Shown: positions 1,377-59,069 of the stretch, one piece after another | Position numbering within the stretch: the stretch's first letter is position 1 | How the letters are laid out: each line of letters opens with the position of its first letter | Origin: Pyropia yezoensis | Taxonomy: Eukaryota; Rhodophyta; Bangiophyceae; Bangiales; Bangiaceae | Direction: 5' to 3' | Length of the DNA stretch: 64,000 bases | Assembly (NCBI GenBank): GCA_009829735.1 | Contig: CM020619.1 | Location: 31,723,547-31,787,546, forward strand | Program-made: the position numbers and the translations under genes | Notes under the pieces: model-generated | Seen by the model: only the letters and a program-made list of their open reading frames with translations | Told to the model about the DNA's origin: nothing | Database searches by the model: none

Positions 1377-4300
1377 ATGACCGGGGGGCGCTGGGGTATC
1401 CCAAGCAAGCCACCCCGGAGAGCCGCGGGGAAAGCCCCACGGAGAGCGCGGTTGAGCCGACGCCGCATCAACCCCCGGGCACACCTTCCGGCCCCGACGA
1501 CACGGCGTCAGGGGATTGATGACCAACCACCAAGGTTGGGAGGAGAGGACGGGATGCCCCGTCACCTGGAACCAGACAAGGGCCCTGTTCAGGATGCCCG
1601 AGTTACACCGGATATCGGTGTAGGCCACGTGCTGTTTACCTTGGAGAACTTCAAGGTATCAGCCACACTGGGGGTTGACCCCCAGTCGACACGATCGTAC
1701 TACCCTGTACTGGATACAGGGGCTGGACCCAACCTTATCCGGAAGGATACCCTTCCGGACAAGTGGCTTCCGCGAGTCAGAGTGACTCGGGGACCCACCA
1801 TCAAGGACGCGAACAATCGCCTCATTCGTACGACCGCAGCGATGTCGCTGCGGGTTACCATCGGGGAACTCACCACGGAAGTCGACTTCCTGGTGTGTGA
1901 GACCCTATCGGTGCCCTGCATACTGGGGTGCACCTTCATCAACGTTCACGTTGATGCAATCCGGCCAGGCCGGAGGACCGTCGAGCTTCAAGAAGCTGAC
2001 GGGACGAAGAGAGGACACACGGCTATCGTCAGGGACCTGACGCTACAAGGGGGCCACGTTAACGTGGCTGAGGTGTACGCAAGCGTCGAGCCGAAGACCC
2101 TTCGGTTGGCCAAGCGAACTCGCTTTGAGCCGTTGTCGGAGACAGTCCTCCCGGTTAACTGCGACCTCGCAGGCATCTGCAGAGTCCGGTCCAACCTGCG
2201 GACGTACAAGCGGCATGGGTTGACCATGGCCAACGGTCTCATAGACCTCCCAGCAGGAGGGTCATCCCTCCTGGTGATGGCGAACTATCGCCGTAAGGCA
2301 GTCACCCTCCCGAAGGGAACTATCCTCGGGATTGCCGAGCTCTACGAACGAGATATCCTCACCCCTGACAAGGAAGGTCAAGTGGAACCACTTGAGGTGC
2401 TGGCGGTCGCCGAGACCACCGAGCGACAGCAACTCGATGACGGGAAGCCTAGTCGACCATCATTACCGGCGGATATTCCGCCGAAGGACCAAGAAGCATT
2501 GAAGGCACTGGCCGAGGCTGACCTCGACCACCTTTCCCCTTCGGTAGCCGAAGGGGTACGACGGATGCTAAGAAAGCATGACGTCATGTGGACAGGCGGA
2601 GCCTTGGGTACCATTGGGGCAACCCAACATCGTATAGACCTGGTACCAGGCGCACGACCCGCCCGGTCACAGCCGCACCGAGAGGGACCTATGCAACGAG
2701 AGATCGTTGATGGAGAAGTGAAGAGGATGAGCGAAGCGAAGGTGATACGACCTTCGATGTCGGAATGGAGTGCCCCAGTCGTCATCGTACCGAAGAAGGA
2801 TCAAACTCCTCGGTTCTGCATCGATTATCGACGCCTCAACTTGGTTACCAAGAAGGACTCATACCCGTTACCGACGATGGATGAATGCATCGACTCCCTG
2901 GGGGAAGCTACGGTGTTTACCACCATCGACTGCAATGCCGGATACTGGCAGATCCTGGTGGCGGACGAGGATATCCCCAAGACGGCATTCGTCTTTCACA
3001 GTGGAGTGTACGAGTTCCTAATAATGCCCTTCGGATTGTCCAACGCCCCTGCTACATTCCAGCGGGCTATCGACATTATACTGTCGGGGGTGAAGTGGCG
3101 TAACTGCCTAGTGTACCTCGATGACGTCATCGTCTTCTCGCGTAACATGGATGACCATGTGCAATATGTTGACGAGGTACTCACCCTCTTGAGGAACGCC
3201 GGGGTAACCCTGCGTCTGAAGAAGTGCGCCTTCTTCCAACAGACGGTCGAGTATCTGGGCCACCAGATAACCCCTGGTAAACTAGGGGTACTCGAAGCCA
3301 ATACCCGGGCACTCCGGGATGCCCGGTTCCCTAACACCCAGACACAGCTCAAGAGCTTCCTGGGAATGTGCAATGTATACCGACGGTTCGTCAAGGACTT
3401 CGCTCGGATAGCTAAACCGTTGACGGTTCTCACGAGCAGCACCTTACCCAAGGTACTCCAACCCCCTTCGCCTAGCGAAGAGGAGGCATTCGAGTCGCTG
3501 AAGCGAGCCCTACTATCCCCACCCGTCCTTGCGTTACCGCACAGACGGGGTACCTTCGTCATCGATGTCGATGCGTGTGATACACAAGTGGGATGCACCC
3601 TGTTGCAGGGAGAGACGTTGATCGGTACCGATAACGTTATCCCGGACCTAAGTCCGGTAGGGTACTTCAGCCGGACACTCAACCCGGCTGAGCGTAACTA
3701 TAGTGCCACCGAGCGTGAGTGCCTCGGAGTTATATGGGCAGTGCAACTGCTCCGTCCATACCTGGAGGGCTCCAGGTTCATCGTGAGGTCCGACCACGAA
3801 CCCCTACGATGGCTCCTCAACCTTGGTGACAAGGATTCCGATAGCCATGGGAGGCTAGCCCGATGGAGGCTGAAGATGGCCGAGCACGACTACCGTACCG
3901 TGTATAAGGCTGGGTCAACCCACCATCTCGGAGACGCATTGTCTCGACTCGACACCCCGAGCGGGGATACCCGCCCGGTGGACGAGGACATCCCGGTGGT
4001 ACCGGTCTGCATGGTGGGTAGCGCTACCCAAGGTATGGTTGACCATACCATGGCACACCGAGCATGCCCACTAACCCTCGCGGACTTCCGCGAGGCACAA
4101 GCCAATGACGACGACTGTAGACGCCATCGCGCTAACCTCATGGCCGGTACGGCCGGCATCTTCTCCGAGAACGAAGACGGACTCATATACCGGCGGGCAC
4201 CCACCGATGGACGACATCAAGTCGTGGTTCCCGTGTCCTTACGGCAAGCCGTCATGGAACGAGAACACGAGAACCCCACAGCCGGACACCCGGGGGGTTC

Positions 4301-5543
4301 ACGTATGTTCGCAGCAATGCGAAGGTTCTTCTACTGGCCAGCAATGGCCGTCGACGTGGTCGACCACGTAAGGGGATGCCACCCCTGTGCACGTAACCGC
4401 ATGAGTCTACATAGGCAGGCGTCTGCCATGAAGTTATTCCCACCCGATGGGCCCAACGAGCAGGTCGCTATCGACATACTCGGGCCACTTCCGGTAACGG
4501 AAGAAGGGAACAGGTACATCCTGGTCATGTCTGATCGCTTCACTAAGCTGTCACGAGCGGAAGCCATCCCGAATGATACGGCATACACGATTATGAACGC
4601 AGTGGTTGACCACTGGATCAGTGCATACGGAGTCATGAAGCAACTCCTCTCCGACAACGGAGCAAACCGTACGTCAGCATTCTGCACTAAGGTCCTGGGC
4701 ATGTTCGGTATCGAACCACGTCGGGCATCCGACTACCACCCGCAGACCAACGGGCAGGTCGAGCGGTTCAACCGGACAATCGTTAAGATGCTACAGTGCT
4801 ACGTGGCCGAGCACACGAACACTTGGGACAGGCTTCTGTCCGTACTCACCCTGGCATACAATGCCAGGCCACATCGGAGCACAAACATCGCCCCACTGGA
4901 GTGGGTCATGCCCTTAGGCGTCGGTAACCTGACGCTGCCGCCAGGCAGGTGCACTCGGTATGATACACCGAAAGGCCGACCGGCCGAACGTATACACCTA
5001 GCTTGGTTGTCCAAGCTATCATGGATGATACCGAAGCTCAAGGGTGCCCTTGACAGAACACAACTTCGATACAAGAAGAACTTCGACGCCCGACTACGGG
5101 TGCGCAACGCTACCCTGGTAACAGGTGACTGGGTCTACATCAGACACCAGAAGTTCCGAGGGAACAAGCTCATGCAACCGGTCAAGGGACCGTACCAGAT
5201 TCTCCACAGAGATGACCACTCTGTTATCTTACACTCCGATACGGAAATCCAACGCATCAGTGTGAATGATGTCACATCTGCTCCGAAGCCGGAACAGCCT
5301 CAGCCGGTACCGGCTGGGTTGCTACATGAAGCTCTTACAACCCACCGGTCAGATGACCCGGTGGGACCGGATGGGATTCCATACCAAGTAGAGAGCGTGG
5401 TCGGACACACCGACCCGGACCTACCAGGACCCTGGTACGTCAAGGTGATGTGGGTCGGATACGACTCACCCACCTGGGAACAGGCGGCAAATATACCCCG
5501 CCAACTACTCATGCCTTACATGAGGCGACGACGCCTACTGTAA
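1377..5543 (+). CDS. pol: A1 pol polyprotein (PR-RT-RH-IN-chromodomain)
   Basis: This is an uninterrupted 1388-residue polyprotein. In order it has an aspartic protease (DTGAG, about residue 112), reverse transcriptase (FCIDYRRLN about 480; catalytic YLDD about 580), RNase H (DVDACDTQVG about 729; DHEPLRW about 806) and integrase. The integrase has an HHCC zinc finger (His about 963, CHPC about 1001) and a D,D,E core (IDILGPLP about 1032, LSDNG about 1091, Glu in NGQVERF about 1125). A C-terminal chromodomain ends in VKVMWVGYDSPTWEQ near residue 1354. The order is that of Ty3/Gypsy elements, and such chromodomains usually steer insertion to heterochromatin. The ATG at 1377 lies eight bases after the gag stop, suggesting reinitiation rather than frameshifting. 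It is the best-preserved pol in the window. Confidence 0.95.
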   Translation: MTGGRWGIPSKPPRRAAGKAPRRARLSRRRINPRAHLPAPTTRRQGIDDQPPRLGGEDGMPRHLEPDKGPVQDARVTPDIGVGHVLFTLENFKVSATLGVDPQSTRSYYPVLDTGAGPNLIRKDTLPDKWLPRVRVTRGPTIKDANNRLIRTTAAMSLRVTIGELTTEVDFLVCETLSVPCILGCTFINVHVDAIRPGRRTVELQEADGTKRGHTAIVRDLTLQGGHVNVAEVYASVEPKTLRLAKRTRFEPLSETVLPVNCDLAGICRVRSNLRTYKRHGLTMANGLIDLPAGGSSLLVMANYRRKAVTLPKGTILGIAELYERDILTPDKEGQVEPLEVLAVAETTERQQLDDGKPSRPSLPADIPPKDQEALKALAEADLDHLSPSVAEGVRRMLRKHDVMWTGGALGTIGATQHRIDLVPGARPARSQPHREGPMQREIVDGEVKRMSEAKVIRPSMSEWSAPVVIVPKKDQTPRFCIDYRRLNLVTKKDSYPLPTMDECIDSLGEATVFTTIDCNAGYWQILVADEDIPKTAFVFHSGVYEFLIMPFGLSNAPATFQRAIDIILSGVKWRNCLVYLDDVIVFSRNMDDHVQYVDEVLTLLRNAGVTLRLKKCAFFQQTVEYLGHQITPGKLGVLEANTRALRDARFPNTQTQLKSFLGMCNVYRRFVKDFARIAKPLTVLTSSTLPKVLQPPSPSEEEAFESLKRALLSPPVLALPHRRGTFVIDVDACDTQVGCTLLQGETLIGTDNVIPDLSPVGYFSRTLNPAERNYSATERECLGVIWAVQLLRPYLEGSRFIVRSDHEPLRWLLNLGDKDSDSHGRLARWRLKMAEHDYRTVYKAGSTHHLGDALSRLDTPSGDTRPVDEDIPVVPVCMVGSATQGMVDHTMAHRACPLTLADFREAQANDDDCRRHRANLMAGTAGIFSENEDGLIYRRAPTDGRHQVVVPVSLRQAVMEREHENPTAGHPGGSRMFAAMRRFFYWPAMAVDVVDHVRGCHPCARNRMSLHRQASAMKLFPPDGPNEQVAIDILGPLPVTEEGNRYILVMSDRFTKLSRAEAIPNDTAYTIMNAVVDHWISAYGVMKQLLSDNGANRTSAFCTKVLGMFGIEPRRASDYHPQTNGQVERFNRTIVKMLQCYVAEHTNTWDRLLSVLTLAYNARPHRSTNIAPLEWVMPLGVGNLTLPPGRCTRYDTPKGRPAERIHLAWLSKLSWMIPKLKGALDRTQLRYKKNFDARLRVRNATLVTGDWVYIRHQKFRGNKLMQPVKGPYQILHRDDHSVILHSDTEIQRISVNDVTSAPKPEQPQPVPAGLLHEALTTHRSDDPVGPDGIPYQVESVVGHTDPDLPGPWYVKVMWVGYDSPTWEQAANIPRQLLMPYMRRRRLL

Positions 5544-6021: not shown

Positions 6022-8391
6022 TCAGTGGGTAGACCCACTGCCCGAGGGAGGCCACTCACGCGTAAGCGCGTATACCTCCGTGCTCCACCGGTCGGCTATC
6101 TCACGACGGTCAATCACCCGAGTTACCTCGGTGCATAGCTGGACGAGGGTGCTGCGGCCAGCCTCCACGTCCTCCAGAGCTTTCTGGAGGCGGTCAAGCA
6201 CGCTACCGAAGCAACGCGCTGACCCAACCAGCGCAGCACCTGGGGGGATATCCCCCCAGCTAACAGAGAGACCCTCCCGCATTGCGCGGGCAACAAGGGC
6301 GTCAACGCCCTCATACCAGAGACGGGAACCCCCGTCATGCATGACAGGAACGGGAGGTGACACTGGCGCAGCCAGAGGAGCCACAGGGGCCGACACGGCC
6401 ACCACCGGAGCCGGTGGCGCCTGATATGAGGCCCGGTAGGACCCCACCGAAGGGGCTCCACCGTAACCCCGGCGGGGCTCCGCCCGACGACAAAACACCT
6501 CACGCTCCCCACCTGCAGAGCCCCACTCTCGGGGACGACGGCCAACCGCCGCCGGTATCGGGTTACCGAACCACGGGGCAAGGACCTGAAGAGGGTCATG
6601 GATAACCATGGGAATACCCAGGTCAGCAACAGCCTCGGTGGATGCCCACCCATGGCAATTGGGCTCACCCGGCTGAGTACGCCGGATACGCAACGAGTGA
6701 CGAGGCAAGGGGGTAGCCCCAGCCTGCGGGTCCCGGTACGGGGGAAGGGCTAGTACCCCAGCCCAGTTCACGGCATCGTGAACAGCCAGCAGGACCTCGA
6801 ACTCCCGGGCCAACCCGGTCTTGGCAGCTATCAGGTCCACGCCCAACTGCGCGATGTGCCGACGGACACCCGTCGGAAGATGAAACAGGCGCCCCTGCCG
6901 GCGGACGGACAGTGAGAAGGAGGAAGCCTGCCCGAGGGTAACCTCAAGGGTGAAGGTACCCTGCAACGGGTGGACCGGCCGGGAGGCCAACACACTCCCG
7001 AAGTATCGGAGACAGGGACCGGTGTCAAACCGGAAAGCAGGGGCGGGTTCCCACCCCTCCTGCCATAGAGGCGGGCGCACGGGAGTGTATACCGGTGCAC
7101 GACCGTTGCCGGTCTGCAACGCACACGTTATATCGGTGCGGAACGCATCCGCCATGACACCATGGTTACGTCGCCAGCTCGACGCCGACTTCAACCCCGC
7201 CATAGGCGGGTAGGGAGCCGTCAACGACAGGTACGGGGATACCCCCGGGTAGTAATCAAAGTCGTGATACCGACCGGTACTGCCCACCGTCTCCCCAAAC
7301 GCAACCGGCTCCGCCGCCGCCGCAATCCCTCGAGCACTAGCCGGGTAGTCAACCTCCCGCGGCACCGCGGGAGCAATCAGGTCGCATACCCCGAAGGCGG
7401 GGTCGAGGTAGACCTCACCCCGTCCCACCCGGGTGCGCCAGAGCTGCGCATGCCGGTCGTCCGGCTGACTCAGGACCCAATGGTGCTCCACTCGCACCGC
7501 GTTCGGCTGGTTGACCAGCCGCACCAACTCTCGCTCCCAACTCGGGTCCACCTTGACGCGCCGGGAGGACTCTCCACGGGGATGCGGCGGGTGGAAGTCC
7601 ACCCGCATCCGCCCAGCGGATTCCATTGACTCTTGCACAGTGAGGCCTCGAACCCGAGCCACCAAGTCGGACACCGACATGGCGGGTTGACCCGCCGCCA
7701 CGGCGACGCCGCCACCCAACGGGGCAACCCGGGCAGGACCAGGAAGAATCGGGGGCGCCCGGGGATGCCCCACCGGCAGAGGGGCCGGCGCCGGAGGCGC
7801 ACGCGGCCGAGGAGGAAGAAGAAGGGCGGGTGCCCGCCCGGAGTAACTCCCGGAGTCCACCGCCATCGGGGTAGATGCATCTTGACCATCGCGCGTCCGC
7901 GGCTCCGCGGGCAGAGCATCGCCGCCACCCGGACCCGACGTGGGTACCACGTCGGCACCACGGGTAGACCCGCTACCCGCCGCAGCGGACACACCAACCG
8001 GGCGGGCACCCGCGCCCTCTTGACCCGCCGTACCGGCCGGGGTGCCGTTATCACCACCCGCCACGCCGGCTACGCCGTCTTGAGGTTGAGCCCCGCCGGC
8101 ACCGGCGTCAGAAGCCATCCGGGCCGCCGGAGGAGTAGCGGTGGAGCCCACCGCTGCACGCGGTTGTGCGCCACCCGACGGAGCCGTCGTGCCGCTACAC
8201 ACGGACGACAACCCGCCCGGCGCGCCTTTCGGGGCCACACGAACGGTCACCCGGTCGTCCTCGTCTTCCGACGAGCTCGCTAAGAAGCACTCGGCGGCGG
8301 TGGCAGAGACGGGAACGTCGTCCACCATCACCTCTTCCTCCTCCTCGAGCAGGAGGTCGTCCTCGCCCCCGGGTACCTGGGGGTCCGACAT
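6022..8391 (-). CDS. A1 antisense ORF (family shared with B and C), function unknown
   Basis: This 789-residue ORF is encoded opposite to pol, between pol and the 3' LTR. I chose the ATG at 8391 because A2 has the same start context (MSDPQVPG here, MSYPQVLG there), although the frame stays open to about 8715. The N-terminus is acidic (EEEEE, then SSSEDEDD) and is followed by about 250 residues of Pro/Gly/Ala-rich, probably disordered sequence. The ordered part begins near residue 330. It includes PPLWQEGWEPAPAFRF, YFGSVLA (about 464), LEV and RLFHLP (about 505), then QLGVDLIAA. The C-terminus has WGDIPPGAALVGSARC and RWSTEV. These motifs align with the antisense ORFs of B1 and C1/C2. No stops interrupt it here. 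I recognise no known domain. An accessory capsid, regulatory or envelope-like role cannot be told apart. Confidence 0.75.
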   Translation of the reverse strand: MSDPQVPGGEDDLLLEEEEEVMVDDVPVSATAAECFLASSSEDEDDRVTVRVAPKGAPGGLSSVCSGTTAPSGGAQPRAAVGSTATPPAARMASDAGAGGAQPQDGVAGVAGGDNGTPAGTAGQEGAGARPVGVSAAAGSGSTRGADVVPTSGPGGGDALPAEPRTRDGQDASTPMAVDSGSYSGRAPALLLPPRPRAPPAPAPLPVGHPRAPPILPGPARVAPLGGGVAVAAGQPAMSVSDLVARVRGLTVQESMESAGRMRVDFHPPHPRGESSRRVKVDPSWERELVRLVNQPNAVRVEHHWVLSQPDDRHAQLWRTRVGRGEVYLDPAFGVCDLIAPAVPREVDYPASARGIAAAAEPVAFGETVGSTGRYHDFDYYPGVSPYLSLTAPYPPMAGLKSASSWRRNHGVMADAFRTDITCALQTGNGRAPVYTPVRPPLWQEGWEPAPAFRFDTGPCLRYFGSVLASRPVHPLQGTFTLEVTLGQASSFSLSVRRQGRLFHLPTGVRRHIAQLGVDLIAAKTGLAREFEVLLAVHDAVNWAGVLALPPYRDPQAGATPLPRHSLRIRRTQPGEPNCHGWASTEAVADLGIPMVIHDPLQVLAPWFGNPIPAAVGRRPREWGSAGGEREVFCRRAEPRRGYGGAPSVGSYRASYQAPPAPVVAVSAPVAPLAAPVSPPVPVMHDGGSRLWYEGVDALVARAMREGLSVSWGDIPPGAALVGSARCFGSVLDRLQKALEDVEAGRSTLVQLCTEVTRVIDRREIADRWSTEVYALTREWPPSGSGSTH

Positions 8392-8984
8392 GGTGCGACC
8401 GGGGTAGCAGGGGCGCCCCGTGCAGAAAAGCCGAGGCCGGCTCGACCCGGTACAAGCAACGCTCGCGCAGGACGAGCCAGGGAAGCACGGGCACCCGCGC
8501 TTATGACCACAAACGGCCACGAGAAGCGCCGCAGGCGCGCGGGTCGACCCGCGCTCCACGAGGCTACGAACGGGCTCCACCCAGGCACCTGGGCGGGCCG
8601 GGGCCACACCCCCGTACGGGGCAACCACGAGGGGTTCACCCAGCAACCGCCCCCGCGAAAAGCGGGAGCGGCCGCCCCCATTCACTCGGTAACACGAGAG
8701 GGGCTCCCCTACCACCAGGCACCTGGTGGCGTATCCACTTGCACCACCCCTCGGAAAGGGGGGTCGTGAACGGCAACCCGCATCGGGAATTTAACGGTCT
8801 GGAAAACGGATCGTGTGTGTACCACACAAAGGGGGGCACCTCCCTCAGACAACCTCGAAAAGGGGTGTCTGTCGCGACGGGGCGCCAAGCCCCACCCGAC
8901 TGGTAAACAGTCACGCGACCCACTTACATTCGGTATCCCGAATGCAACTCGACCCGAGGACGGGCCGAATCTAAGGGGGGGATA
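8392..8984. other. Leader of antisense ORF / region upstream of 3' LTR
   Basis: This stretch lies between the antisense ATG and the 3' LTR. It holds no independent ORF that is conserved in frame between A1 and A2. The antisense frame stays open to about 8715 without an ATG. It probably serves as the 5' untranslated leader of the antisense transcript and ends in the polypurine tract. Confidence 0.5.
8972..8984 (+). other. Polypurine tract of A1
   Basis: The run TAAGGGGGGGATA lies directly upstream of the 3' LTR, where plus-strand DNA synthesis is primed. A2 has the same tract on the other strand at 48939-48951. Confidence 0.85.
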
Positions 8985-9348
8985 TGTAGCAATATGGTTG
9001 TCCATATTGTGACCCTAATATCAGGGGGGGCTAATTCTAATCCTTGGCTTTCAATTTGATAGTCCGGACTGGTCACGGTATCTATATGTTACGTATGACC
9101 AGAGGGACTTGCATCTTGGGGTGGAGGGTAGTTAGTAGTGTCTCCGAGAGTTTATAACGTGGGGGCCGGCGGCGAATCCACCGCCGGCCAAGGCAGAACA
9201 ACAAACCCCTCCCGTTTGGGCTCCCATCTTGGTCCCGTGGCTTGCGCTCCAAGGACAGCAACCTTGGCCTCCCGGTGACGTTGGTGCAGATCCCCCTGGT
9301 GAGTGTTCCCTGAGAGTGGACGTGCGACGGATACCCTATTGTGCTACA
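8985..9348 (+). repeat. 3' LTR of A1 (364 bp)
   Basis: The LTR begins TGTAGCAATATGG and ends CTATTGTGCTACA, with inverted ends TGTAGCA/TGCTACA. It matches the LTRs at 36401, 48577 and 59090. TTTATAA at 9151-9157 is a candidate TATA box that also reads TTATAAA on the other strand, toward the antisense ORF. Confidence 0.93.
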
Positions 9349-9587
9349 ACCTGCGAGTACGCTGGTTCGGTTTTAACCCGGCAGATGATACCTGGGAACC
9401 CTCAAACCGGTTACCCATCGCGGACGTCTGCGCCTACACGCGACGGAACGGGATTGAGGGCACTCCGGTGGCCAGAGCCGGCAAGATCCTGGAACCAGAC
9501 TCGGAGGAGGACCAGGAGGACGGGACCGATCAAGACACGCAGGACGAGCAGAGCTCGCCCGCAACGGATGCGGAACAAGAGGATTGA
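9349..9587 (+). pseudogene. pol: C1 pol C-terminal fragment (chromodomain)
   Basis: This is the last part of a Ty3/Gypsy polyprotein, cut off by the A1 insertion. It starts with the chromodomain core RVRWFGFNPADDTWEPS and continues into an acidic tail ending DAEQED at 9587. The same sequence, minus the chromodomain core, ends C2 pol at 47728. The B1 counterpart reads RVRWFGYKAKDDTWEYVEDL. Confidence 0.88.
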
Positions 9588-9732
9588 GAAGAAGGGAACG
9601 GGTATATCAAGGAAAACACGCAATGCAAGCATGGAACAATCAAGGAAAACAAGCACCCGCTCGAGCAACGCTTCTCTCCGCCTCTTCCCTCCTCGCTTAT
9701 CCCAAGACTCTCACCCTCCTTGCCTCCAAGTA

Positions 9733-11850
9733 CTACTTCCGGCGCGGACGCTGTGCCGCGGGAGCGTCCTCCAGCACTGCCTCCGCGGCACGACGGGAAC
9801 CGGAGGAATGCGGGATGGCGTAGTGCGGTGGGCGCGGCGCATCCAGGTATGACGCCATCGGAGTAGTACCGGTAGTTGCCGGGCGCTCACGCTCATCCAG
9901 ATATGCCTGTCGGCGCCTCTGGAAGCCAGTGAAGGTCTCTGACCACTGCTGGGCCAAACCATGCCGCGTCAAAGTCGCCAGAAGTTCGCGAACCACCGGG
10001 CTGTCCGACATCTGGCCGCTGTCCGCGCAAGCAAACACCCGGTCAACCACGTTGTTCAAGACGCTGGCGTAAGTACCCAGCACCAGGGAAGACCCGACGC
10101 TTTCAACCTGCACCGGAAGACGACCCAGCTGGTCTTCAATCATACCGACGTCGTACTGGTCGCATGTCTGGCCACCTTGGTTCAGGTACCAGTCAGGCAC
10201 CCGGAAGCGGGTAAGGCGCAGAGTCGGCGCCGGAATCTCGAACCGCCCCGAGGATGCCACTACCGGACGGTCCACAACAGCCCCAGAAACCGGAGTCCCC
10301 AACTCCAGCGGAGGCACAGGGCCGCCGACGTTGGAAGAAGGCGTCCGAGGCAGAACGGCCGGAGTAGTCGGCGACCGCACAGCCACCCCCAGACTCGCGG
10401 CAGACAAGCGCGGTGCCGGAGGAGCTTGAAGCACCGGCACAGGCGGAGCAGGACGCAGACGCGCCGGCGACGGCTCAGGCGAAGCCACCGGGGCGACAGG
10501 TGCAGCAGGAGCAAGTGGAGCCGCCGCAGACGCCCGACCGACCGCCGCGGCCCATCCCGACTCTTGCACCGGCGGCCCAATTGGCAGAAGATCGAGAGCG
10601 ACCGGAACAGTAAAGCTGCCTAGCTGCGGCCACCCCGGAAGCGGTGTCGCTAGCTGCACCTTGGCCGGAGAAGACTGGTAGACCACCTACACCCAACCGG
10701 AGCCATCCCGACGCGGGCTGTTCTGGTCGGCGATCGCGTTCAAGAAGCTCCGGTCCTGCACCGGCAGACGACGCCGGAAGTCAATCATCGCCTGGAAGAG
10801 CACTTTGTACTCCTCGTCCTGGCTGCACAGGAAGTCGACGGTCAACTTGTCGACAATCCAGACCATCAGGAGATCGGGGAGAAGCCAAAGCCGGTTGGAC
10901 ACCAAGACCTCGTGGAGCCAGTGATTGGCCGCCAAGACCGTCATCTCGGAGGTGTACATCATGTACGGGATCGAGTGGAAGAAGCCCTTGATCGACGCCT
11001 GAGTCAAGGCGTCCAAGAAGTACCAGGTGAAGGGGATGCTGGATGGAGCAAACCCGACCGGGATCTCGATTTCCTGCTGCTGCGGGATGACCTTGGGGTA
11101 GTACGCCGCCCGGTTAGCCTTGTCCAGCTTCCAGAACTCCTGGTGGTTGCAGCTCACGAGGAAGTCACGCTGGCGCCCGCGTCGCTCACCCTGCTCCCGT
11201 GCCGGCGACAGCTTGGAGTATTTCCGGGTCAGAAAAGGCGGCTCCAGAGCGACCATGCTCGGACGGGGATCGCAGTTCAGGCTCCCCGACCCCTTGAGCG
11301 CCTCGTCCCAGACCTTAAGTGCCCGGTGGACGTACCCTTCCTCCTCTGGCCACCGGAGAGCGGACGCGGACACACGACGCTCGGTCAGGGGTAGATCCAG
11401 CACCAGCGCGAAGGGGAGATCCTCCAGATGAGCAGCCCAAGAGGAACCCGAGAAGCTCTGGGAGCGGTCTTGTGCCAGGCGCATCTGGTCCGCCGTATGA
11501 AGACGAGTCTTGTCCATCTCGGTCAAGACCCCGCGCTGGAGTTCCTTGCGCCAGATGTTCAAGCAGTCCTGTTGGCACTGGGCCGCGCTGGCGTTGCCAG
11601 CCACCGTGGAGTAGCGCCGGCCCGCCAGAGGATCCTGCCCAAGAAGCATCTCCGGGAGACCCACCGGGGGGGTCTCGACCGGGTGCACCGCAGAAGCCGG
11701 GGGAACCCGATCCGTCCCCGCCGTGGCGACCGGCGCCGGCACCGACACTCGAGGAACCGGAGGCAGGAGAGGGGCGCGACTACCCGAGTTCTCTTTCGCA
11801 ACACTCGCCGCCGGAACCGCGGGCCCAGCTTGGATCTCGGAACTGGACAT
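9733..11850 (-). pseudogene. C1 antisense ORF (one nonsense codon)
   Basis: This antisense protein of about 705 residues lies between pol and the 3' LTR, ending 145 bases from the pol stop, exactly as in C2. The ATG at 11850 (MSSSEIQAG) is conserved in C2 at 45210. A TAG at 10689-10687 interrupts it where C2 has CAG. Ordered N-terminal half: EFWKLDKANRAAYYPK, then WYFLDALTQ (about residue 277), HEV, RLWLLPDLL (about 320) and DKLTVDFLCSQ. These align with the antisense proteins of A and B. A Pro/Ala-rich linker follows, then a C-terminal segment with QQWSETF. No known domain is recognised. The stop suggests this copy is dead unless read through. Confidence 0.75.
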
Positions 11851-12020
11851 GACGTCCAGAATCCGGGGGGGAACGAGAGGGCCGAGGTGAAGGAGAAGGG
11901 GGGGGGGACAGAATCGGAGCAGTTGCTCGTGACCGGGGTGAAAACGCTCGACCTCGGCACCGGTGTGGACGTGCTCGAGGCTGTGCACGGTGGCACCTGG
12001 TTCGGCCCGAGGACGTGCCG

Positions 12021-12037
12021 GACTAGGGAGGGAGCTA
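12021..12037 (+). other. Polypurine tract of C1
   Basis: GACTAGGGAGGGAGCTA lies directly upstream of the C1 3' LTR. The same tract is present on the minus strand in C2 at 45020-45036. Confidence 0.8.
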
Positions 12038-12610
12038 TGTAGCATCCCTGGCCCCGACTTGGCGCCGACCCGGGACTACAACCAGAGGGCACCAGGTGCC
12101 AGAACACGCCCGCCGTGTGGTGACGGTTGGCGGCCGTGGCCCGTGCCCGGCACTGGGATGCGGTGGACTACGCTATCCACACGTGAGAGAGGGATTGCTG
12201 ATGGGTTTTTGCATACTTGTGAGGGACTTGATTTGAAAGAATTTGAGTGTGAGATTAGTGAGTGGGAATAGAATTAGTAGTGATAGTGGCCCCCGACCTG
12301 ACGAGGTTAGACTCGGGTCGGGGCCACTCGGGGTTATGGGGGGGGGCTACCTGGCCAACGTGCCGAGGCTCCCCCAGATGCACGTTAAGAGGGACAGCGA
12401 GGCGCCCTTGGCCCGCGCCGTCAGGAAAAAGACAACTGCGCGTTTGCTTTCCTCTTCCCCGTGTGCACTACCGTGCGTATCTGTTTGCTCTGCGAGCAGG
12501 CACGTGAGGCAACAGGCATGCCATTCTCGTAGTTCCCCTTTCTGTGTTACCTGTCCCTTTCCCCCGAGGGATATTGACACGTGTCTGAGAGGATCGAGTT
12601 TAATACCACA
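12038..12610 (+). repeat. 3' LTR of C1 (573 bp)
   Basis: The LTR begins TGTAGCATCCC and ends TAATACCACA. It matches LTRs at 29145-29717 and 44446-45019 in the opposite orientation. On the antisense strand its edge reads TGTGGTATTAAAC, a mutated version of the TATAAAA seen in the other copies. Confidence 0.93.
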
Positions 12611-14506
12611 GACACCTCCTACGGTGCAGCGCCCGCCAGGACTTCCGGCGGGGGCACCGCGATCGCTCAGGGGGATGGGACTCCCGCGTCACCCGGCTTT
12701 GGGTTGACGGCGGGATCTCCCCCGTCGGCGGGACAAGTTGTCCCGCGTGAGGCCTTGGGGCGGTGGTTTTACCCCGCTTGGCCTCTATATGAGGAGGGGT
12801 TGACGGTTCTTCGCTGTGGCCGACTTTGCACAGCGATGGGTCGGGTATGGGACCGCCTACGGGAGAAGTATCCCCGTAGGGTCGGGTTCCCTGCCGGCTT
12901 CAGGACCGGCCAGTTTGCCTTCCTGGACGACGAGGAGGTCGAAGACGTACAGCGGGCCAAGGCCATGATGGACCGCGGGGGAACTATCCCGGGTCCCGGC
13001 GACTTGCCGACCTTTACTTTGGACGCGGTGGCAACTCGCCCCCCGTACCCTCACGAGGCCGATCCGCACACTCATCACTTTGATGTGCGGATGGAGAAGG
13101 ACTTCCGGCGAGGTCCTTACTTGGTGACCTCGGCTCAACTTGAGTTTCCGCAGCAGTCCGCTGCCAGTAAGGAGCAGTACTATCCGAAGAAGCTCGAGTG
13201 GTGGCCTCAAGTTGAGGTCCCCTACGGGTTCCCTGCGTTGTTGCCACGGTTGCTTGACCACTTCGGCTCCGTCATGTTGACGGCTGCCCCTGATCACCTG
13301 GTGTCGGCCATGTTGGCCACCCAGTGGCTCCTCGAGGTCATGTCGACCTGGGTGTCCTATGTCCAGCGGCGGGGGATGCTCTGGCATCTCCCCCTCCGGC
13401 TTATCCAAGGTTTGGAACAGCTCACCCCTCAGCTAGTTGCTGAGGGGTGCTCATCAGGACAACTCCCTCTACTCGAGGAGATGCTCCGCCTCCACACGTT
13501 TATCGAGTGGGAGAGCATTGAGCACAAGTTGCGCCGCCCCACTCGTGGGCCCAAGGACGATGGCGCACTTCGCCAATTCGTGTGGGTCGCTCGTGAACTT
13601 CACGACGGCCGTGTGGTCCTACGAGAGGGGTTGGGCATCGGGGACTACCCGTATGCCCCGGGGGTGGATTGCCACACTGCGCCACCCCCGGATAAGCCCA
13701 TAGTTATGGCCGTGCCCTCATACGATGACCATATGACTCAACCCACTGCGGGGGCCCCAAGTCGGGGTCGCAGTTACACTCGGGTCCCGCCACCTCGGCG
13801 TGCCCCTCCGCTTCCTCTTGTCCCCTTCCAGCCGCACGGGAACATCCCGATTAGCGTGGCCGTTGAGTCGTCCACCCCGGTGTCCCCCAACTTGGGGGCC
13901 ACCCTCCTGGCGGTATACCCAAAGTTGGTGTTACTGCCCACGCCTCTAACCTCAGAGATGATGATCACTACGTTGTTGCGCACCATCTCCTGGTTGGCCG
14001 AGTCGACCGCAACCCTTCAAGCTTCTGAGACTCCTCAACTTGAGGAGCGCGTTCGTACTGCGGTGGCGACCGCGAGTTGCGAGTCGGTGGCGGAGTTTAC
14101 GACGGCCGAGTTGGCTCGCATTGGGGCTCTTATGCCCCAACCATCCGCAATTGGGCGTGGCAAACGTCGTGCGAGCCGGGCATATTCGCCTCCTCGCCGT
14201 CGTCGCCGACACTCACGGCGCTCTCCCTCCGTGTCGGAAGACGAGTTGTCTTACTCCGTCTCGGAGTCCTCGACTCCGTCAGAGTCGGACTCGGTCCGGC
14301 GTCTGCGTCGCAAACTTGCGCGCAAGACTAAGCAGAAGAGTAGCCACGGTCGGCGCCACTTGCGCGACCGTGAGGGGCGCGACGGTTCCGACTTGGAGCC
14401 GCCGCCCCCTCCGACTGGTGGGGAGCGTTACCGCCGTGGGTCTCGCCGCTCGCCTCTACGAGAGGGCGAGGGCCGTGGAGTTGGAGAGTCTAGCATGCAT
14501 GCTTAG
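12611..14506 (+). CDS. B1 antisense ORF (5' end cut by C1), function unknown
   Basis: About 631 residues remain. The natural start is lost; the frame runs back into the C1 LTR, where an ATG at 12581 is fortuitous. The ordered domain contains YLVTSAQLEFPQQ, EQYYPKKLEWWPQVEVPYGF, HFGSVML (about residue 218), QWLLEV, RRGMLWHLP (about 257), QLTPQLVAEG and LLEEMLRLHTFIEW. Its order and spacing match the antisense proteins of A (FGSVLA, RLFHLP, QLGVDLIAA) and C (YYPKVI, HEV, LWLLP, KLTVDFL). The C-terminal 120 residues are Arg/Ser-rich (SPPRRRRRHSRRSPS), which would suit nuclear import or RNA binding. It is uninterrupted and converges on pol with 113 bases between stops. Confidence 0.72.
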   Translation, partial: DTSYGAAPARTSGGGTAIAQGDGTPASPGFGLTAGSPPSAGQVVPREALGRWFYPAWPLYEEGLTVLRCGRLCTAMGRVWDRLREKYPRRVGFPAGFRTGQFAFLDDEEVEDVQRAKAMMDRGGTIPGPGDLPTFTLDAVATRPPYPHEADPHTHHFDVRMEKDFRRGPYLVTSAQLEFPQQSAASKEQYYPKKLEWWPQVEVPYGFPALLPRLLDHFGSVMLTAAPDHLVSAMLATQWLLEVMSTWVSYVQRRGMLWHLPLRLIQGLEQLTPQLVAEGCSSGQLPLLEEMLRLHTFIEWESIEHKLRRPTRGPKDDGALRQFVWVARELHDGRVVLREGLGIGDYPYAPGVDCHTAPPPDKPIVMAVPSYDDHMTQPTAGAPSRGRSYTRVPPPRRAPPLPLVPFQPHGNIPISVAVESSTPVSPNLGATLLAVYPKLVLLPTPLTSEMMITTLLRTISWLAESTATLQASETPQLEERVRTAVATASCESVAEFTTAELARIGALMPQPSAIGRGKRRASRAYSPPRRRRRHSRRSPSVSEDELSYSVSESSTPSESDSVRRLRRKLARKTKQKSSHGRRHLRDREGRDGSDLEPPPPPTGGERYRRGSRRSPLREGEGRGVGESSMHA

Positions 14507-14619: not shown

Positions 14620-17600
14620 TCACGTTGAGGGAGGGCTGTTAGGGTCTATCTCATTCCGGGCACAGTACGCCCGGACCTTCTCAGCGGGAAGGTCCTCCAC
14701 ATACTCCCACGTATCATCCTTGGCTTTGTAGCCGAACCAACGCACCCTCAACATGAGGCTGTTAGTGTCCTCATCCCATCCGTGGTCGATGAACTTATCG
14801 AACACGTACTCCTGCGGGCCATGTTTGGCCGCAGGTTGCGAGGGCAGGCGCCACGCTTCCAGCGCACGCGCCCAAGCTGGGTCGCCTGCAGGCGGTGGTG
14901 CAACTTTGACCACGTCCTGTCCGTTCACTGTGCGGACCCCATCGTCACTTTCGATGGTGAAGCGCCGCCCATCAGTACGAAGGACCTGGTACGGCCCCTT
15001 CGTCTGGAATACCAGCTTACCCCCAGTTGGGGTGTGTGAGTGAACCAGTACCCAGTTACCCTGCTCGGGGACATGCTTAGAATTGCGCACCTTTTTGTCA
15101 AAAGTACGCTTGTAGCGCTTTTGCGCTTTGTCCATCTCAGCCCTCACTTTAGGGATGAGGTTTTCAAGCCTAGCAGCGAACTCCGCCTTACTCTCAGTAG
15201 AAGTAGGCGTACTGCCACCATCCTCCCTAGTTGGGAGCGACCGCCGCACAGCGATAGACCGCACGCGACGGGGGGTCACAAAAGCGAGGGGTACTTCCCC
15301 AGTAGATGAGTGAACCTGCGAATTGTAGGCAGTGGTAAGAATAGAAATGTATTGGTCCCACGTCTTCACGTGCTCACTCACATAGTGGCGCAGCTGCCTA
15401 ACAATAGTTTTGTTGAAGCGCTCCATCTGCCCATTAGTTTGTGGGTGGTAGGGGGTGGCATAGTTTGCCTTCACCACCAACATATCCAGCACTCCCTGAA
15501 ACAGTACAGACGCAAATTGCGGTCCATTGTCCGATAGTGTACTATCCGGAATGCCATACGCGGCAACCCAGTGATCTAGGAAGGCTGACTCGACCGACAT
15601 GGCCGTGATCTCCGCCGGAGGGATCGCTCGCGTAAGTTTCGTGAAGCGATCATAGATGACTAGAAGGTACTGGTTGCCCTCCTTGGTCACCGGCAGTGGC
15701 CCAAGGATGTCCATCGCCAACGCGGCAAAGGGCTCCTTGGCCGGGAACAGTAACATAGCCGTAGTAGGCCGCCGTTCCATCAGACGGTTCTGTGCACAAC
15801 TTGTGCAGGCAGCCACCCAACTGTAGATGTTCAACACCATGGACGGCCAGTAGTACCTGGTCCTCAGGGTCTGGTACAGTTTACTAGACCCCAGGTGTCC
15901 ACCCGAAGGAGCGTTGTGCTCCCTCTCAAGGATACTGTCCTTGAGGGATGCGGGGACGACAAGTTGTTCGGTCCCCTGGAATACCCCCCTCCTCATGAGG
16001 AGGCCATCGTCTCCCAGAAAAAAACGCGTCTCCACCACTGTATCCAGTGTATCCCTCTGCGACTTGCAGAAGGGAGCCTCGGCCTGGGCCTTCACCACCT
16101 CGTCCAGGGACAGGGGCAAGTACTTCTTGCTCCCTGGCGCCTCGGGGTTCAACGCCTTACCCGAGCGCGTGACTACCCCCACGATGGGGATGACCTCATC
16201 GACTGGGTTAGTGTCCAGCCCCTCGGTAGGTACCCGAGAAAGGTCGTCGGCAAGGGCATGTTGCCTGCCAGGTCGGTACTCAATATCAAAGTTTGAAGGG
16301 TGCCAGTCGCACCCTCCACCGATTGAGACGAGTTTTCGTGCAATCCGTCTTGAAGATGAACTGCAACGCGCGGTGGTCACAGCGGATGAGGAACTTCTCA
16401 CCCTCTAGGTAGTGACGAAGTGACGTCACCGCCCACACCACTGCGAGTCCTTCCAACTCGGTGACTCCGTAGTTCTTCTCGGCCGAGCTCAGCCCCTTGC
16501 TGAAGTATCCCACCGGCAAGTACTCCTTGTCCGGCTGCTGCTGAAGAAACACACAACCAAGTTGGTCGTAGCCAGCGTCCACATCCAGGGTGTAGTGGCC
16601 TCCCAACCTGGCAATAGCCAAGATGGGGGGCTTCAGCAGAAGGTCCCGAAGAGTCTCAAAAGATTCCTGCTCCACCCGACTTGGGGGAGGCAGGTTCTTC
16701 GGTAGCGTTGAGCTCACTAGCTCATTCAGCGGCTTCGCCACCTTGGCGAAGCCCTTGGTGAAACTTCGGTACACGTTACACATCCCGAGGAAGCTCCTCA
16801 TCTGGGTCTGGGTCCGGGGGTACTGAGCCTTACGGATGGCCCTCAAGTTTTTCTCGTTGACACTGAGGCGCCCCGGGCGGACAACCTGTCCCAAGTATTC
16901 CACCTCTTGAGTGAAGAGGTGGCACTTACTCGCCTTCAGTGACACACATGCGTCAGCAAGTAGCTTGAACACCTGGCCAAGATGGCCAATGTGTTCCTCC
17001 GGACTTCGGGAGAACACAATGATATCGTCTAGGTACACGGGACAGATCTGCTACCGTACTCCGGCCAGAATCATGTCCATAGCGCGCTGGAAAGTTGCCG
17101 GCGCGTTACACAGGCCAAACGGTAAACGCTTGCACTGGTAGGCACCACAGTGACAGGTAAAGGTAGTTTTATGTCTGTCTTCCGGGGCAATGGGAATCTT
17201 CCAGTACCCCGCGATGCAGTCCAGGGTAGAGAGCACGTTCGCCTCCCCCAGAGAGTCCAGGCAGTCGTCCATCCTAGGTAGGGGATAACTGTCCTTCACC
17301 GTGCTCTCGTTGAGCTTACGGTAGTCGATACAGAACCGTGGGGTCCCATCAACTTTGGGGACGATAACCACCGGACTCGCCCACTCGGCGTTGCTGGCCT
17401 CGATCACATCGAGGGCCTCCATGCGAGCAACTTGCTCCTTAACGAGGGCCCTTGAACGGGGTCCTTCCCTACACGGTTGTTGGCGTATAGGGGGTGCACC
17501 GGGTTTCAACTCGATCCGGTGTTGGGTGGCTCTCGTGAGTCCCAATTGACCATCCCTCAACTTGTGATATTGGTCCAAGAGGCGTTCAACTGGAACCCTC

Positions 17601-18604
17601 AACCCGGGTGGGACACCCTCCATGTTCACATGCGGACGAGGAGAGGCGGCCGACTTGGCTTGATGCTTCTCCTTTCCGGACTTCGGGTCGCTACTTGCGC
17701 CCGCGTTGAGGGTACCCGCTACTACCGGTCCCTCGTGTTGGTCGATATAGCCGAACTTGGCTCCCGACTTGAAGTACTGGGGCGACAAGCTGAGGTTCGT
17801 CACCTGGATCCTCCACGGGACTCCGGCTTTGGAGTCCATCGTGCCAAGGGCAACATGCACTTGGTGCTTGCGAGCAAGACGGGGGTAAGGGTGCACCAAC
17901 CCGTTCCCCGTATAATCAGTTACAACATCCACGTGCGCCACCGAGTTGGGGGGCAACGTGACTTTGCGGGCTAAACGCAGGGTAGCAGTAAACCCTTCCC
18001 TCACAGAGCAAAGAGGCTTCGACTGTGAGACTGTCACAGGAGCCACAGACTTTCCCTCACCAAGGATGGGGATAGTCTCCCCATTCATCAACTTGACCCA
18101 ATAATCAGGGCCACAAATCAAAGGCACTTGTGTTACGACATAAGGGGTACCCAGAAGCAGGGGTACCGATATATTCTCAACTACTCCAAAGGTCACGTCG
18201 ACCTCATGGGTTCCCAACCTAGTTTGTAGGGTCACGGCACCAACGATGGGAAGTACCCCACCATTGATGTCGATCAGGTGGTCAGCTTTAGACTTCCAGC
18301 GTTGGAGCTTCACCTCCTTTGGTAATAGCGACTTGCGTATCAAGGAGGCTCCTGACCCGGTATCAAGTACGATACGGGCACAGCAGGCACGGCCGGGGGC
18401 AAGTTGCACCCGTCCAGCCACCTGGAAGTTCTCACCCGTCAGCACCGCGATGACCCGACGTGGGTTTACGTTCTTGGGGAGTCCTACCCGAGGTGGGCGG
18501 ACTCCCTTAGGTCGCCGCAGTATCCGGCAGGGTTGGTTCGTCCTCTTCACCCACTTGGCCCAGGCTGCCGTTGTGAGCTTAGGACGGCCAGCCCCAACGG
18601 TCAT
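14620..18604 (-). pseudogene. pol: B1 pol polyprotein with nonsense codon and frameshift
   Basis: This is Ty3/Gypsy pol. In order it has protease (VLDTGSGASLI near 18360), reverse transcriptase (FCIDYRKLN near 17330; YLDDIIVF near 17030), RNase H (DVDAGYDQLG near 16580) and integrase. The integrase has HHCC near 15910-15790, MDILGPLP near 15700, LSDNGPQFAS near 15520 and NGQMERFNK near 15430. A chromodomain is at about 14800-14670 (RVRWFGYKAKDDTWE). A TAG at 17053-17051 lies just before the YLDD box where a Trp codon is expected, and the frame slips by one base near 16310 in RNase H. Its ATG at 18604 overlaps the gag stop as ATGA. Confidence 0.92.
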
Positions 18605-21938: not shown

Positions 21939-22613
21939 TGTAACGATTCGTCCCAAATACACCGTGAAAACCTGAGATTGGGACATCTCCTTACAAGTCC
22001 TTATTATCTAGATAGAAGACTTGAGCATCCCCACGTAATCGCGTGGACGCCCGTTAGTGTCTGCAAACATCGGGTTGTAATTGGAGGGTCCAGTATTAAC
22101 GGACCGCTCTGGAACGGCTGCACGACCCGCCGGTCATCGGGTGATTCGGGCTGCAGCTCAGGATATGTGGACGTATGTAGATTTTGTATCTGTGGCCAGA
22201 CACCTCGTCTGGAATGCTTTGGAGCCACACCTTGTGTGCGCTCGCCCTTGCATTGTATTTGAGCCGTCTGGCCGCACTGCGGCACGACGGGGAAGCGCAT
22301 GCTTAGGGGGCACCTTCGGTGCCCCGCTGTGGGTATATAATGTGTGCCAGTGGGTGTTTCGGTGTGGAGAGGGGGAGGCAACCACAGAGACAGACAAAGA
22401 CTTTCTATACCATTGTACCACTCACCAACCATCACCGACGTCACGCCACCCTCTTCCCCACTCCAGTCACCGTTGCTTCCCCATCACCTTCCCCGGAACC
22501 CACACCGTTATAACCCCATCCCTTTCCCCAACATCTACACCGGATTGCTGTTCAAGGTCAAGGGTTCGAACAAGAGTACGTGAAGGGCTACCCCGGTGTG
22601 GGTGGGCCTCACA
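21939..22613 (+). repeat. 5' LTR of E (675 bp)
   Basis: It begins TGTAACGATTCG and ends GTGGGCCTCACA. It is almost identical to 28196-28870 after the first 110 bases, but the first 110 differ at about twelve positions. The following bases TGTGGTACCTCCAGGCAG may contain the primer site, offset by two bases from the LTR. Confidence 0.95.
22307..22340 (+). promoter_or_regulatory. E LTR core promoter: palindrome plus TATA box
   Basis: TATATAA at 22334-22340 is a clear TATA-box candidate. Eight bases upstream lies a perfect inverted repeat GGGGCACC-TTC-GGTGCCCC (22307-22325). The right LTR has the same arrangement, with TATATAA at 28591-28597. Confidence 0.7.
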
Positions 22614-22842
22614 TGTGGTACCTCCAGGCAGTTTGACTTTTTTGGCGTTTTCGTTGCTACTCGGCCTGATTCGGATCCCCCTGTGTTTGTGACTTCGTGC
22701 TGCCCCCTGCGTTCGGCTTGCTTCGGGCATTGTAACACGAACGCAGCGGGCACCACGAATCACACCGAAGAAACACTATCCTGACACTGCCCTTGTGCTT
22801 TGTGTCACGGTGGGTTTTTTTTTTTGGTCAACCGATTGTTGA

Positions 22843-23481
22843 AACCCAGTGAGCTCCAAATCTGGTTCTGAGTATTCACCGTCGGCTTTGGCGGCGGCTC
22901 CCTCGACGACTTCTTCGGCGGAGGCGCGCGGAACCCCGACGGCCCCATCGTCGTCATCCACTGTGGCGGCCCTGCTGCACCTGTCCCTGCACACCCGCAC
23001 CGCGTCATCCCCTCGCGTGTCTACAAACGGCAAGGACATCCAGGCGGGGCTCGCAAGCCCGGCCAATCAAGGCCCTCTGCTGCCACGTCGGCCAATTGAA
23101 CGCCCCTTCGTGGCCCCTTCTGCGCCGCGCATCGGGTACATCAAGCCAACCACCGCCTGCGCCGCCGAGCAGCACGAACAGCGGTTGGTAGAGAAAAAGA
23201 TGGCGGGTCGCAAGTTCAAGTACCAGTGTAAGCCGTGCGGTATTCGGTGCAACAGCCTCACCGTATTGGTCGACCACCGCGCATGGCGCCGTCACCGGAA
23301 CGTGGCCAACCGCCCAAGTGAACTTCCGATTGCAAGACGTGCGATCGTGAATTCGAGTCCATTGACCACTTCGAACGGCGTGGGAAAAATCACCGCCGTG
23401 CCTTGGCACGCGCCAGTGACTAACCGACTTGGCAACCCCTCAAATCCGCCCGTTGAACCGGATCTATTTTGGTTGATCTGA
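22843..23481 (+). CDS. E leader ORF with U1/matrin-type C2H2 zinc finger
   Basis: This open frame of about 213 codons lies between the 5' LTR and gag. It has a low-complexity Ser/Ala-rich N-terminal half, then YQCKPCGIRC and a paired-His segment giving CX2CX12HX5H, the spacing of U1-like (JAZ/matrin) fingers that bind RNA. There is no ATG before 23200. The frame opens after a pyrimidine run and CCAG near 22848, resembling a 3' splice acceptor. It ends in TGA at 23479 and is in the same frame as gag. It may be a captured host exon, a spliced leader protein, or a former gag extension. The noncoding stretch 23482-23796 separates it from gag. Confidence 0.5.
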   Translation, partial: NPVSSKSGSEYSPSALAAAPSTTSSAEARGTPTAPSSSSTVAALLHLSLHTRTASSPRVSTNGKDIQAGLASPANQGPLLPRRPIERPFVAPSAPRIGYIKPTTACAAEQHEQRLVEKKMAGRKFKYQCKPCGIRCNSLTVLVDHRAWRRHRNVANRPSELPIARRAIVNSSPLTTSNGVGKITAVPWHAPVTNRLGNPSNPPVEPDLFWLI

Positions 23482-23796
23482 CTCGTCGATGGAATCAACT
23501 CCGACGCGAAGTGGGCCCGAGTGATTCGAACGAATGGCACTAGAAATTATCGAACTCTAGACCACGACTTCGATCGACTCGGTATCCATCTCCTCAGAGC
23601 TTACTGTGCCTTACAGGTACACATCTCTTCGAAAGTGATCGACACACTCTCAGTACCACCTTTCCAGACATCTGTATCAGTAACTCAGTGGTTTATTTTC
23701 AACGCTTTTCTTTCCCATTGTGTCAAGAGCCTTCGCAGCGCCCTGAAGGAGCGCAGTCCCTGGAACCTTCGTCCGCGGACTTTATCTTCGGAGACG

Positions 23797-24672
23797 ATGA
23801 CTGTGAGTGATCCCGCGGGTGCCGGCCAAGCTGGGTCGGACTCAACTTCTGCGGCCCCCCCCATGGAGTTTTGGAATCAACTTTCAGCTTTCGTCGCCCA
23901 GATGAGTCGAGAGCTGGAATCACAGAAGATTGAACTGACGGAAACCAAGAGCCAGCTTGTCGAGGCTAAGGCCAAGGCTGCGGCAGGAAGTACTGCCGCT
24001 CGACCGAACAAGCCGTCACCATTTTCGGGCAAGCCAGGTACGGTGGAAGCGTGGTGCTCTCACATGGACTCTTATGTGCACCTTAATGATCCTGAAGAGG
24101 CATGCCGTATCGCCTCCACGTACCTCGACGGGGAGGCATTTAACTGGTGGCACACTTACCGTCGGAGCAATGTTGTGTCTGACTGGAAGGCCTTTCGAAC
24201 TGCCATTGTTCGAAGGTTCAGCCCGTTGAATAAGACACAGGCCGCGAGGGACAAGCTCCGCTCATGGCGTCAAGTTAAAGATGTTGGGACATTCAACAAA
24301 ACGTTCCTAAGCATCGTCATGGACATCCCGGATATCACCGAGGAAGAAAAGATTGATCGCTATAGTCGGGGCCTGAAGCGAGACATATGGCGGGCTCTAT
24401 GCATCAAGACGTACTCCGAGCTCGAGACCGTCATGACTGATGCGTTGCGTGTGGAATCCGCTAAGGTCGGTGCCTCGCGCAGCCTTGGGAACGTGAGCAG
24501 CAACCACGCTAAGCCATACGTGTCGCCGGGCGTCCCAATGGACATCTCCAGCACTAAAGTGGAGAAGCTGACTCCGGAAGAACGTCAGCGATGCATGCGC
24601 GAAGGACTTTGCCTTCGCTGTCGAGAAAAGGGACACTTTGCCAAGGACTGCTCAAAAGGCCAGCGGAACTGA
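23797..24672 (+). CDS. gag: E gag
   Basis: This is a 291-residue gag starting at ATG 23797 (MTVSDPAGAG). It has a coiled-coil-like segment (SRELESQKIELTETKSQ), a retrotransposon capsid domain (from about residue 70: PFSGKPGTVEAW, GEAFNWWHTY, AFRTAIVRRF) and a C-terminal zinc knuckle CLRCREKGHFAKDC of the canonical CX2CX4HX4C form. It overlaps pol, which is in the -1 frame. The heptamer A-AAG-GGA at 24627-24633 fits the X-XXY-YYZ slippery pattern inside the overlap, though Y=G is weak. It is intact. Confidence 0.88.
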   Translation: MTVSDPAGAGQAGSDSTSAAPPMEFWNQLSAFVAQMSRELESQKIELTETKSQLVEAKAKAAAGSTAARPNKPSPFSGKPGTVEAWCSHMDSYVHLNDPEEACRIASTYLDGEAFNWWHTYRRSNVVSDWKAFRTAIVRRFSPLNKTQAARDKLRSWRQVKDVGTFNKTFLSIVMDIPDITEEEKIDRYSRGLKRDIWRALCIKTYSELETVMTDALRVESAKVGASRSLGNVSSNHAKPYVSPGVPMDISSTKVEKLTPEERQRCMREGLCLRCREKGHFAKDCSKGQRN

Positions 24673-56672: not shown

Positions 56673-56680
56673 CCTTCCTC

Positions 56681-58147: not shown

Positions 58148-58156
58148 CCGCTTCAG

Positions 58157-58864: not shown

Positions 58865-59069
58865 AGTCACAATCAGTCAACCGACGTAACAATCACCACG
58901 AATAAGAGAGCGAGGGGGTAGATTGGGAAGAGTAACAGTAGATCACAGTCAAAGGTAAAAACTCAACACAATCGATCAGGTCGCAACACCGCGAGTACAA
59001 GAAAAGGACCGGATTTCTATCCGTGTGCCAGGGCCGAAGACGGCGTCACCACAAGGGTGACGGAAACCC

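Follow-up and report, generated by a model that had tools for sequence, protein, structure and literature searches.

An antisense gene common to three families of Ty3-type retrotransposons in the red alga Pyropia yezoensis, and its exchange as a cassette in family A

For years, antisense genes have been recognised in LTR retrotransposons without a function being assigned to them. What such a gene may do for its element is the question raised here by a stretch of DNA from the red alga Pyropia yezoensis, in which each of three families of Ty3-type elements (A, B and C) has, in the interval from pol to the 3' LTR, a gene that runs antisense to gag-pol and is some 650-830 codons long. The window, by which we mean the whole stretch analysed, comprises 64,000 nucleotides (contig CM020619.1, positions 31,723,547 to 31,787,546), and the genome searched for further copies amounts to 107.5 Mb. 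The published assembly of this species is described as consisting of 48% repeats, with LTR elements predominant (PMC7423979).

Nested Ty3-type elements with a gene on the opposite strand

Ty3-type elements are nested throughout the window. LTR positions and self-alignment indicate that A1 lies within C1, which in turn lies within B1, and that A2 lies within C2, the latter nesting being apparent from the layout. The features are given below by position in the window and strand; types I and II are two forms of the family A gene that are compared further on.

1377..5543, plus strand: A1 pol (protease, RT, RNase H, integrase), from Pfam matches
6022..8391, minus strand: A1 antisense gene, type I, 789 codons, intact
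8985..9348, plus strand: A1 3' LTR (the 5' LTR lies outside the window)
9733..11850, minus strand: C1 antisense gene, single in-frame stop at 10687
12038..12611, plus strand: C1 3' LTR
12611..14506, plus strand: B1 antisense gene, first 16 codons missing in comparison with genome copy L003; the C1 LTR abuts at 12611
14620..18604, minus strand: B1 pol, three open pieces, chromodomain-like end
21939..28885, plus strand: element D, Ty3-type without antisense gene, used for comparison
44446..45019, minus strand: C2 3' LTR
45210..47582, plus strand: C2 antisense gene, frame-shifted, 256-bp tandem duplication at 46542-47037
48577..59451, minus strand: A2 element, LTRs at 48577-48938 and 59090-59451, 97% alike
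49525..52023, plus strand: A2 antisense gene, type II, in-frame stops at 51001 and 51397
52507..56421, minus strand: A2 pol, 94% amino acid identity with A1 pol
59281..62508, minus strand: C2 pol, past the A2 insertion, assigned to C2 from the layout

The Ty3-type features present are the order protease-RT-RNase H-integrase, the LTRs and a polypurine tract preceding the 3' LTR, the tracts being judged by eye in families A and C. Over the RT-RNase H stretch, the three families have pol proteins about 49-53% alike, with 30-44% elsewhere, and those of B and C reach 70% over one 83-residue stretch. The Chromo domain was matched in B pol at E 1.1e-4 with 22.5 bits, under the curated 25.1, and was not among the Pfam matches of A pol at E 0.1. 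The two LTRs of element D are 97% alike, and its pol is 28-39% alike to those of A, B and C. Its pol and 3' LTR are about 135 bp apart, so that an antisense gene would not fit between them.

A Gag can be recognised in element D as well (Retrotrans_gag, E 3e-15); the scanned Gag-region frames of A, B and C gave no capsid family match and weak zinc knuckles in some. A short motif, CCGAGGACGxGCCG, stands just ahead of the polypurine tract in both families A and C (window 8954-8984 and 12007-12037) and was not found in the B copy L003. The window further holds a 338 bp tandem repeat of 2.4 copies (42269-43064) and an LTR of family C, apparently solo, that borders a second B fragment (29145-29717).

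Intactness of the antisense gene across the genome

An earlier note on this DNA had described five copies in which a long open reading frame runs opposite to gag-pol and is placed between pol and the 3' LTR. Position and strand held for all five of them; the frame is open over the whole described span in A1 only. Across the genome, internal stops were absent from 68 of 69 listed matches in family B and, with the first 452 codons as query, from 84 of 93 in family C, where the whole gene was open in 25 of 30 fetched copies. In family A, 74 of 88 match rows were free of stops with a query of 492 codons from the start of the A2 product, and 6 of 51 with a query of 897 codons, which takes in 108 codons upstream of the ATG. 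Counted from the ATG, 789 codons are open in A1 and in five of six fetched A copies; L044, for example, is listed with one stop, yet is open for 789 codons. One A copy, L040, was missed by the motif filter. Since the match lists were sorted by similarity, intact copies are over-represented in these counts. In 11 copies the three opposite sense frames hold 7-25 stops each and the other two antisense frames 12-25, which argues that the antisense frame is not open by chance.

Relationship of the antisense proteins of families A, B and C

The earlier note had also proposed, from short motifs occurring in the same order, that the antisense proteins descend from one ancestral protein. Here, we compared profiles of the three families. 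With hhalign, A and B matched at E 4.4e-5 over 182 columns and B and C at E 4.1e-5 over 168 columns, both alignments falling on the same part of B (about 128-319). The scores of 45.9 for A-B and 47.1 for C-B stand above the maxima of 27.1 and 27.2 reached in 100 local shuffles each, and the A-B match came to E 1.8e-6 when the A profile was widened by relatives from P. vietnamensis and metagenomes. Direct homology between A and C was not significant: E 0.006 with a score of 30.6, where the highest of 100 shuffles reached 30.5, and, with the wider A profile, E 0.057 with a score of 24.3, where the highest of 60 shuffles reached 30.8. As the direct comparison is weak, it is B, together with position and strand, that links A to C.

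When 1254 six-frame stretches of the window were searched, the top four non-self matches of the B profile were the antisense frames of A2, C1, A1 and C2, and the top non-self match of the A profile was B. For the C profile, B (E 0.022) ranked below a stretch at 21399-21776 (E 0.0043), which is unrelated and aligns to the low-complexity linker of C. Taken together, these comparisons support one homologous family, in which A and C are significantly related only via B. The proposed common descent thus stands for A-B and B-C, and for A-C through B; the C-terminal motif that A and C were said to share (RWSTEV/QWSETF) was not significant (E 0.02). Identity in the antisense core is about 24% for both A-B and B-C (BLASTP), and at the level of sequence identity the core has evolved faster than pol.

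Selection on the protein product

We estimated dN/dS by the Nei-Gojobori method. Among the 12 most divergent pairs of each family, the ratio was 0.25-0.41 in A and 0.26-0.29 in C, and for the A1 and A2 genes it was 0.32. In family B it was 0.02-0.07 among genome copies with more than one differing site, and 0.18-0.22 when genome copies were compared with B1. In the one pair available for both regions (L003-L005), the value was 0.11 in the integrase part of B pol versus 0.04 in the antisense gene. Finding copies via protein similarity favours low dN; copies drawn by their flanking DNA, damaged ones included, gave 0.35 in C (5 copies and C1) and 0.15 in B (4 copies and L003).

Read in the antisense frame, substitutions fall mostly on third codon positions. 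Constraint peaks in the core and is lowest in the N-terminal third of A; one 60-codon window with dN/dS 1.05 marks the N-terminal part of A as weakly constrained. Overall, the values lie well under 1 in A, B and C, and the ratio near 1 that had been named beforehand as the contrary outcome did not occur, in agreement with the protein-level selection supposed in the earlier note. We thus conclude from the codon comparisons that the antisense gene is kept by selection for its protein product.

Relatives and domains of the antisense proteins

The protein database searched holds 5.8 billion proteins. The search depends on common exact words, and for A and B the best 8000 candidates were scored, so that distant relatives would go undetected. 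One relative each was found for B (97%) and C (99%). The A-led alignment, used as query, found 17 relatives, of which 7 are named Pyropia vietnamensis hypothetical proteins with 43-52% identity, the only named relatives found in this database; one cluster of unnamed relatives represents 19 sequences.

That the proteins have no recognisable domain, as had been remarked from the sequence, was borne out by the domain searches. Eight proteins gave no Pfam family at a maximal E of 10 with the HMMER speed filters on, and none at 0.1 either; the TRP28 domain (PF04195) was likewise without a match in these eight at E 10. No match was obtained in PHROG, nor among PDB sequences with profile A3 and B1 as queries. 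Comparison with seven Gag-region frames gave no significant relation, the best being B versus its own Gag region (16 columns, E 0.019). The antisense genes are GC-rich (0.64-0.68). We considered high GC as a sign of host origin and dropped it, as third-position GC is similar in the antisense genes (0.69-0.74) and in the pol genes of A-C (0.63-0.66).

The antisense gene of family A is exchanged as a cassette

When A1 and A2 are compared in steps of 250 bp, identity is 0.86-0.98 over A1 1-6000, 0.68-0.77 across 6001-8500 (save one bin at 0.83), and 0.94-0.97 over 8501-9351, which comprises leader and LTR. At a finer scale the identity steps near 6001 and 8470, with the edges of the divergent stretch about 20 bp past the gene stop and about 80 bp ahead of the gene start.

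Nine A copies were compared piecewise. In the 12 pairs of type I with type II, dS was 0.158-0.235 on the pol side, 0.483-0.663 in the N-terminal part of the antisense gene and 0.720-0.843 in its C-part (the C-terminal two thirds). In the 9 within-type pairs, dS of the C-part (0.032-0.208) was similar to that of pol (0.058-0.201), so that the stretch does not mutate faster and must have an older, separate history. A high local mutation rate without any exchange would account for a contrast that is limited to one stretch; however, the equality of synonymous divergence between gene and pol within types, and the existence of copies with a sharp type switch, leave this explanation scarcely credible. 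Two copies, L048 and L049, are such recombinants: their N-terminal part is type II, the rest of the gene is type I, and the switch lies at about A1 7820-7860, within a stretch shared by the types.

We counted the junctions genome-wide by a pattern of 71 bases with up to 3 mismatches. The recombinant junction occurred 322 times, that of type I 25 times and that of type II 68 times, and reversed-pattern controls gave 0. Every place of the recombinant junction among the matches listed was exact, and a few of the type II matches were near-recombinant. Older copies exceed 3 mismatches, and the counts are therefore biased to young types. In a tree of A proteins with 9 of 18 proteins of the P set, several of them fragmentary, in which 4 of 15 inner branches are open, as well as in pairwise identities, types I and II are about equally distant from the P. 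vietnamensis proteins.

The LTR-side DNA does not separate types I and II, in a comparison where L047 and L051 are unusually divergent and L039 covers the region in part. Since this DNA does not set the types apart, no target outside the gene and its leader of about 80 bp has been exchanged along with it, which weakens a model of repressor with operator. Thus, the copy comparisons show the antisense gene of family A to be an exchangeable cassette, with two diverged types and a recombinant in a near-identical backbone. No gene swap was seen in family B, where all four copies fetched by flank (4 of 40 listed) are of the ordinary type, or in family C, where five of seven so fetched (of 40 listed) are ordinary and the other two interrupted.

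In addition, a tandem array without gag-pol was observed at G000:C2:9880000-9893910 (partly L077). Its unit of 3489 bp consists of LTR, the last 126 bp before the gene, a recombinant-type antisense gene, leader and LTR; there are four junctions, and one unit shows an open frame of 897 codons. A mobile mini-element of the antisense gene alone was considered and rejected: its junction was found at 4 places (up to 3 mismatches), all of them in this array.

Possible function of the antisense protein

The swap of the antisense gene between family A lineages hints at a control gene. Our best reading, to which we give a probability of roughly one half, is that the gene is an exchangeable accessory gene promoted from the LTR side, with a trans-acting and probably nuclear product that would serve as a regulator or as a counter-defence factor. 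Its transcription would start at a promoter located within the 3' LTR or next to it and would not depend on the gag-pol RNA, and the product, acting in trans as an accessory regulator, would either control the sense expression of the element itself or else counter host silencing. The A product has an acidic N-terminus followed by a low-complexity part and the conserved core, and B has a basic tail rich in Arg and Ser; A and C are slightly acidic (pI 6.3 and 6.6) and have no basic tail like that of B. The B tail, the acidic N-terminus of A and the comparable nuclear product of Grande (PMC7264820) point to a probable nuclear site. Exchange of the whole gene into a common backbone is as expected of a specificity gene, be it for self-control or against host silencing, and because the LTR-side DNA was not co-exchanged, the matching target would lie in the gene, in the short leader or in the host. 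By swapping whole cassettes instead of relying on point mutations only, a lineage could alter its specificity. Such a shift may be the reason for the success of the recombinant type; hitch-hiking is an alternative. In an extended and doubtful form of this idea, the gene would be a specificity module. Its type would determine by which resident copies or by which host defences the element is held in check, and a recombinant of two old types would have set off the most recent large expansion in family A.

The product could instead face the host only, relieving its silencing, so that cassette exchange would reflect an arms race and not self-control. Exchange of the protein gene while the LTR-side DNA is common to both types fits a host-facing target, and the recombinant junction is the commonest; however, the product has no known Pfam domain and a dN/dS of 0.32 between A1 and A2 gives no overall sign of positive selection, and we regard this explanation as tentative and rather unlikely. 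A large and constrained protein at the position of retroviral env might also be a structural or particle-associated accessory (Env-like, or an aid to movement or packaging) that is antisense by chance. Antisense coding, however, uncouples a protein from expression of the genomic RNA, and neither the seven Gag-region frames nor any Pfam family gave a significant match, which makes a structural role improbable.

That the gene was captured from the host and is carried as a passenger would agree with its GC-richness (0.64-0.68) and with the lack of any sequence relation found to known families or Gag-region frames. Nevertheless, it is present in three families whose pol is only about 30-50% alike over most of its length, it is constrained in each of them, and the cluster of 19 unnamed relatives is unlike a single host gene; we hold a passenger origin to be quite improbable. 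Finally, the antisense RNA rather than the protein might matter, through control by double-stranded RNA, with the open frame incidental. Such control has been discussed for other retroelements (PMC7264820), but the codon-structured constraint and the protein homology between families speak against it, and this highly improbable alternative is largely refuted by dN/dS.

Comparison with known systems

VANC proteins relieve host silencing of VANDAL DNA transposons, and they and the exchange of phage immunity regions are cases in which a regulatory or counter-defence gene is exchanged or diverges fast in a common backbone. Neither concerns retroelements, and it is the logic that would be alike. 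HBZ is a small bZIP protein of a retrovirus. As the nuclear product of an antisense gene of HTLV-1, a virus in which the antisense promoter lies within the 3' LTR (PMC11963269, PMC7264820), it offers a functional analogy only.

Closer in layout are the plant elements. Gene23 of Grande and aORF-3R of RIRE2 have the same place and strand as the algal genes, and outside plants Boty of Botrytis cinerea has an antisense ORF between pol and the 3' LTR, the likeness being one of layout in each case; the gene23 product is reported as nuclear, and a separate promoter that lies upstream of gene23 is reported to drive its transcription (PMC7264820). The antisense ORFs of the Retand lineage carry the TRP28 domain (PF04195) and are described from flowering plants only, in a non-chromovirus lineage (PMC11963269), whereas the algal proteins gave no TRP28 match. 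Exchange of the antisense gene between types, as found in family A, is not described for Retand in the parts of that account available to us (PMC11963269). In the literature searched, as far as its accessible portions go, we found nothing relevant on antisense genes of LTR elements in red algae and no report of exchange of such a gene. The layout is thus already known from Retand and Grande of plants, and what is new is the protein family, the host group and, within the literature searched, the cassette exchange.

That a red alga has a protein-coding antisense gene without a sequence match to the TRP28 domain of plants suggests that this layout arose more than once. Family A provides a natural comparison, in which the antisense gene alone exists in diverged types on one backbone, with hundreds of recombinant junctions. 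Expression, chromatin and small RNAs of types I, II and the recombinant can be compared side by side in a single genome.
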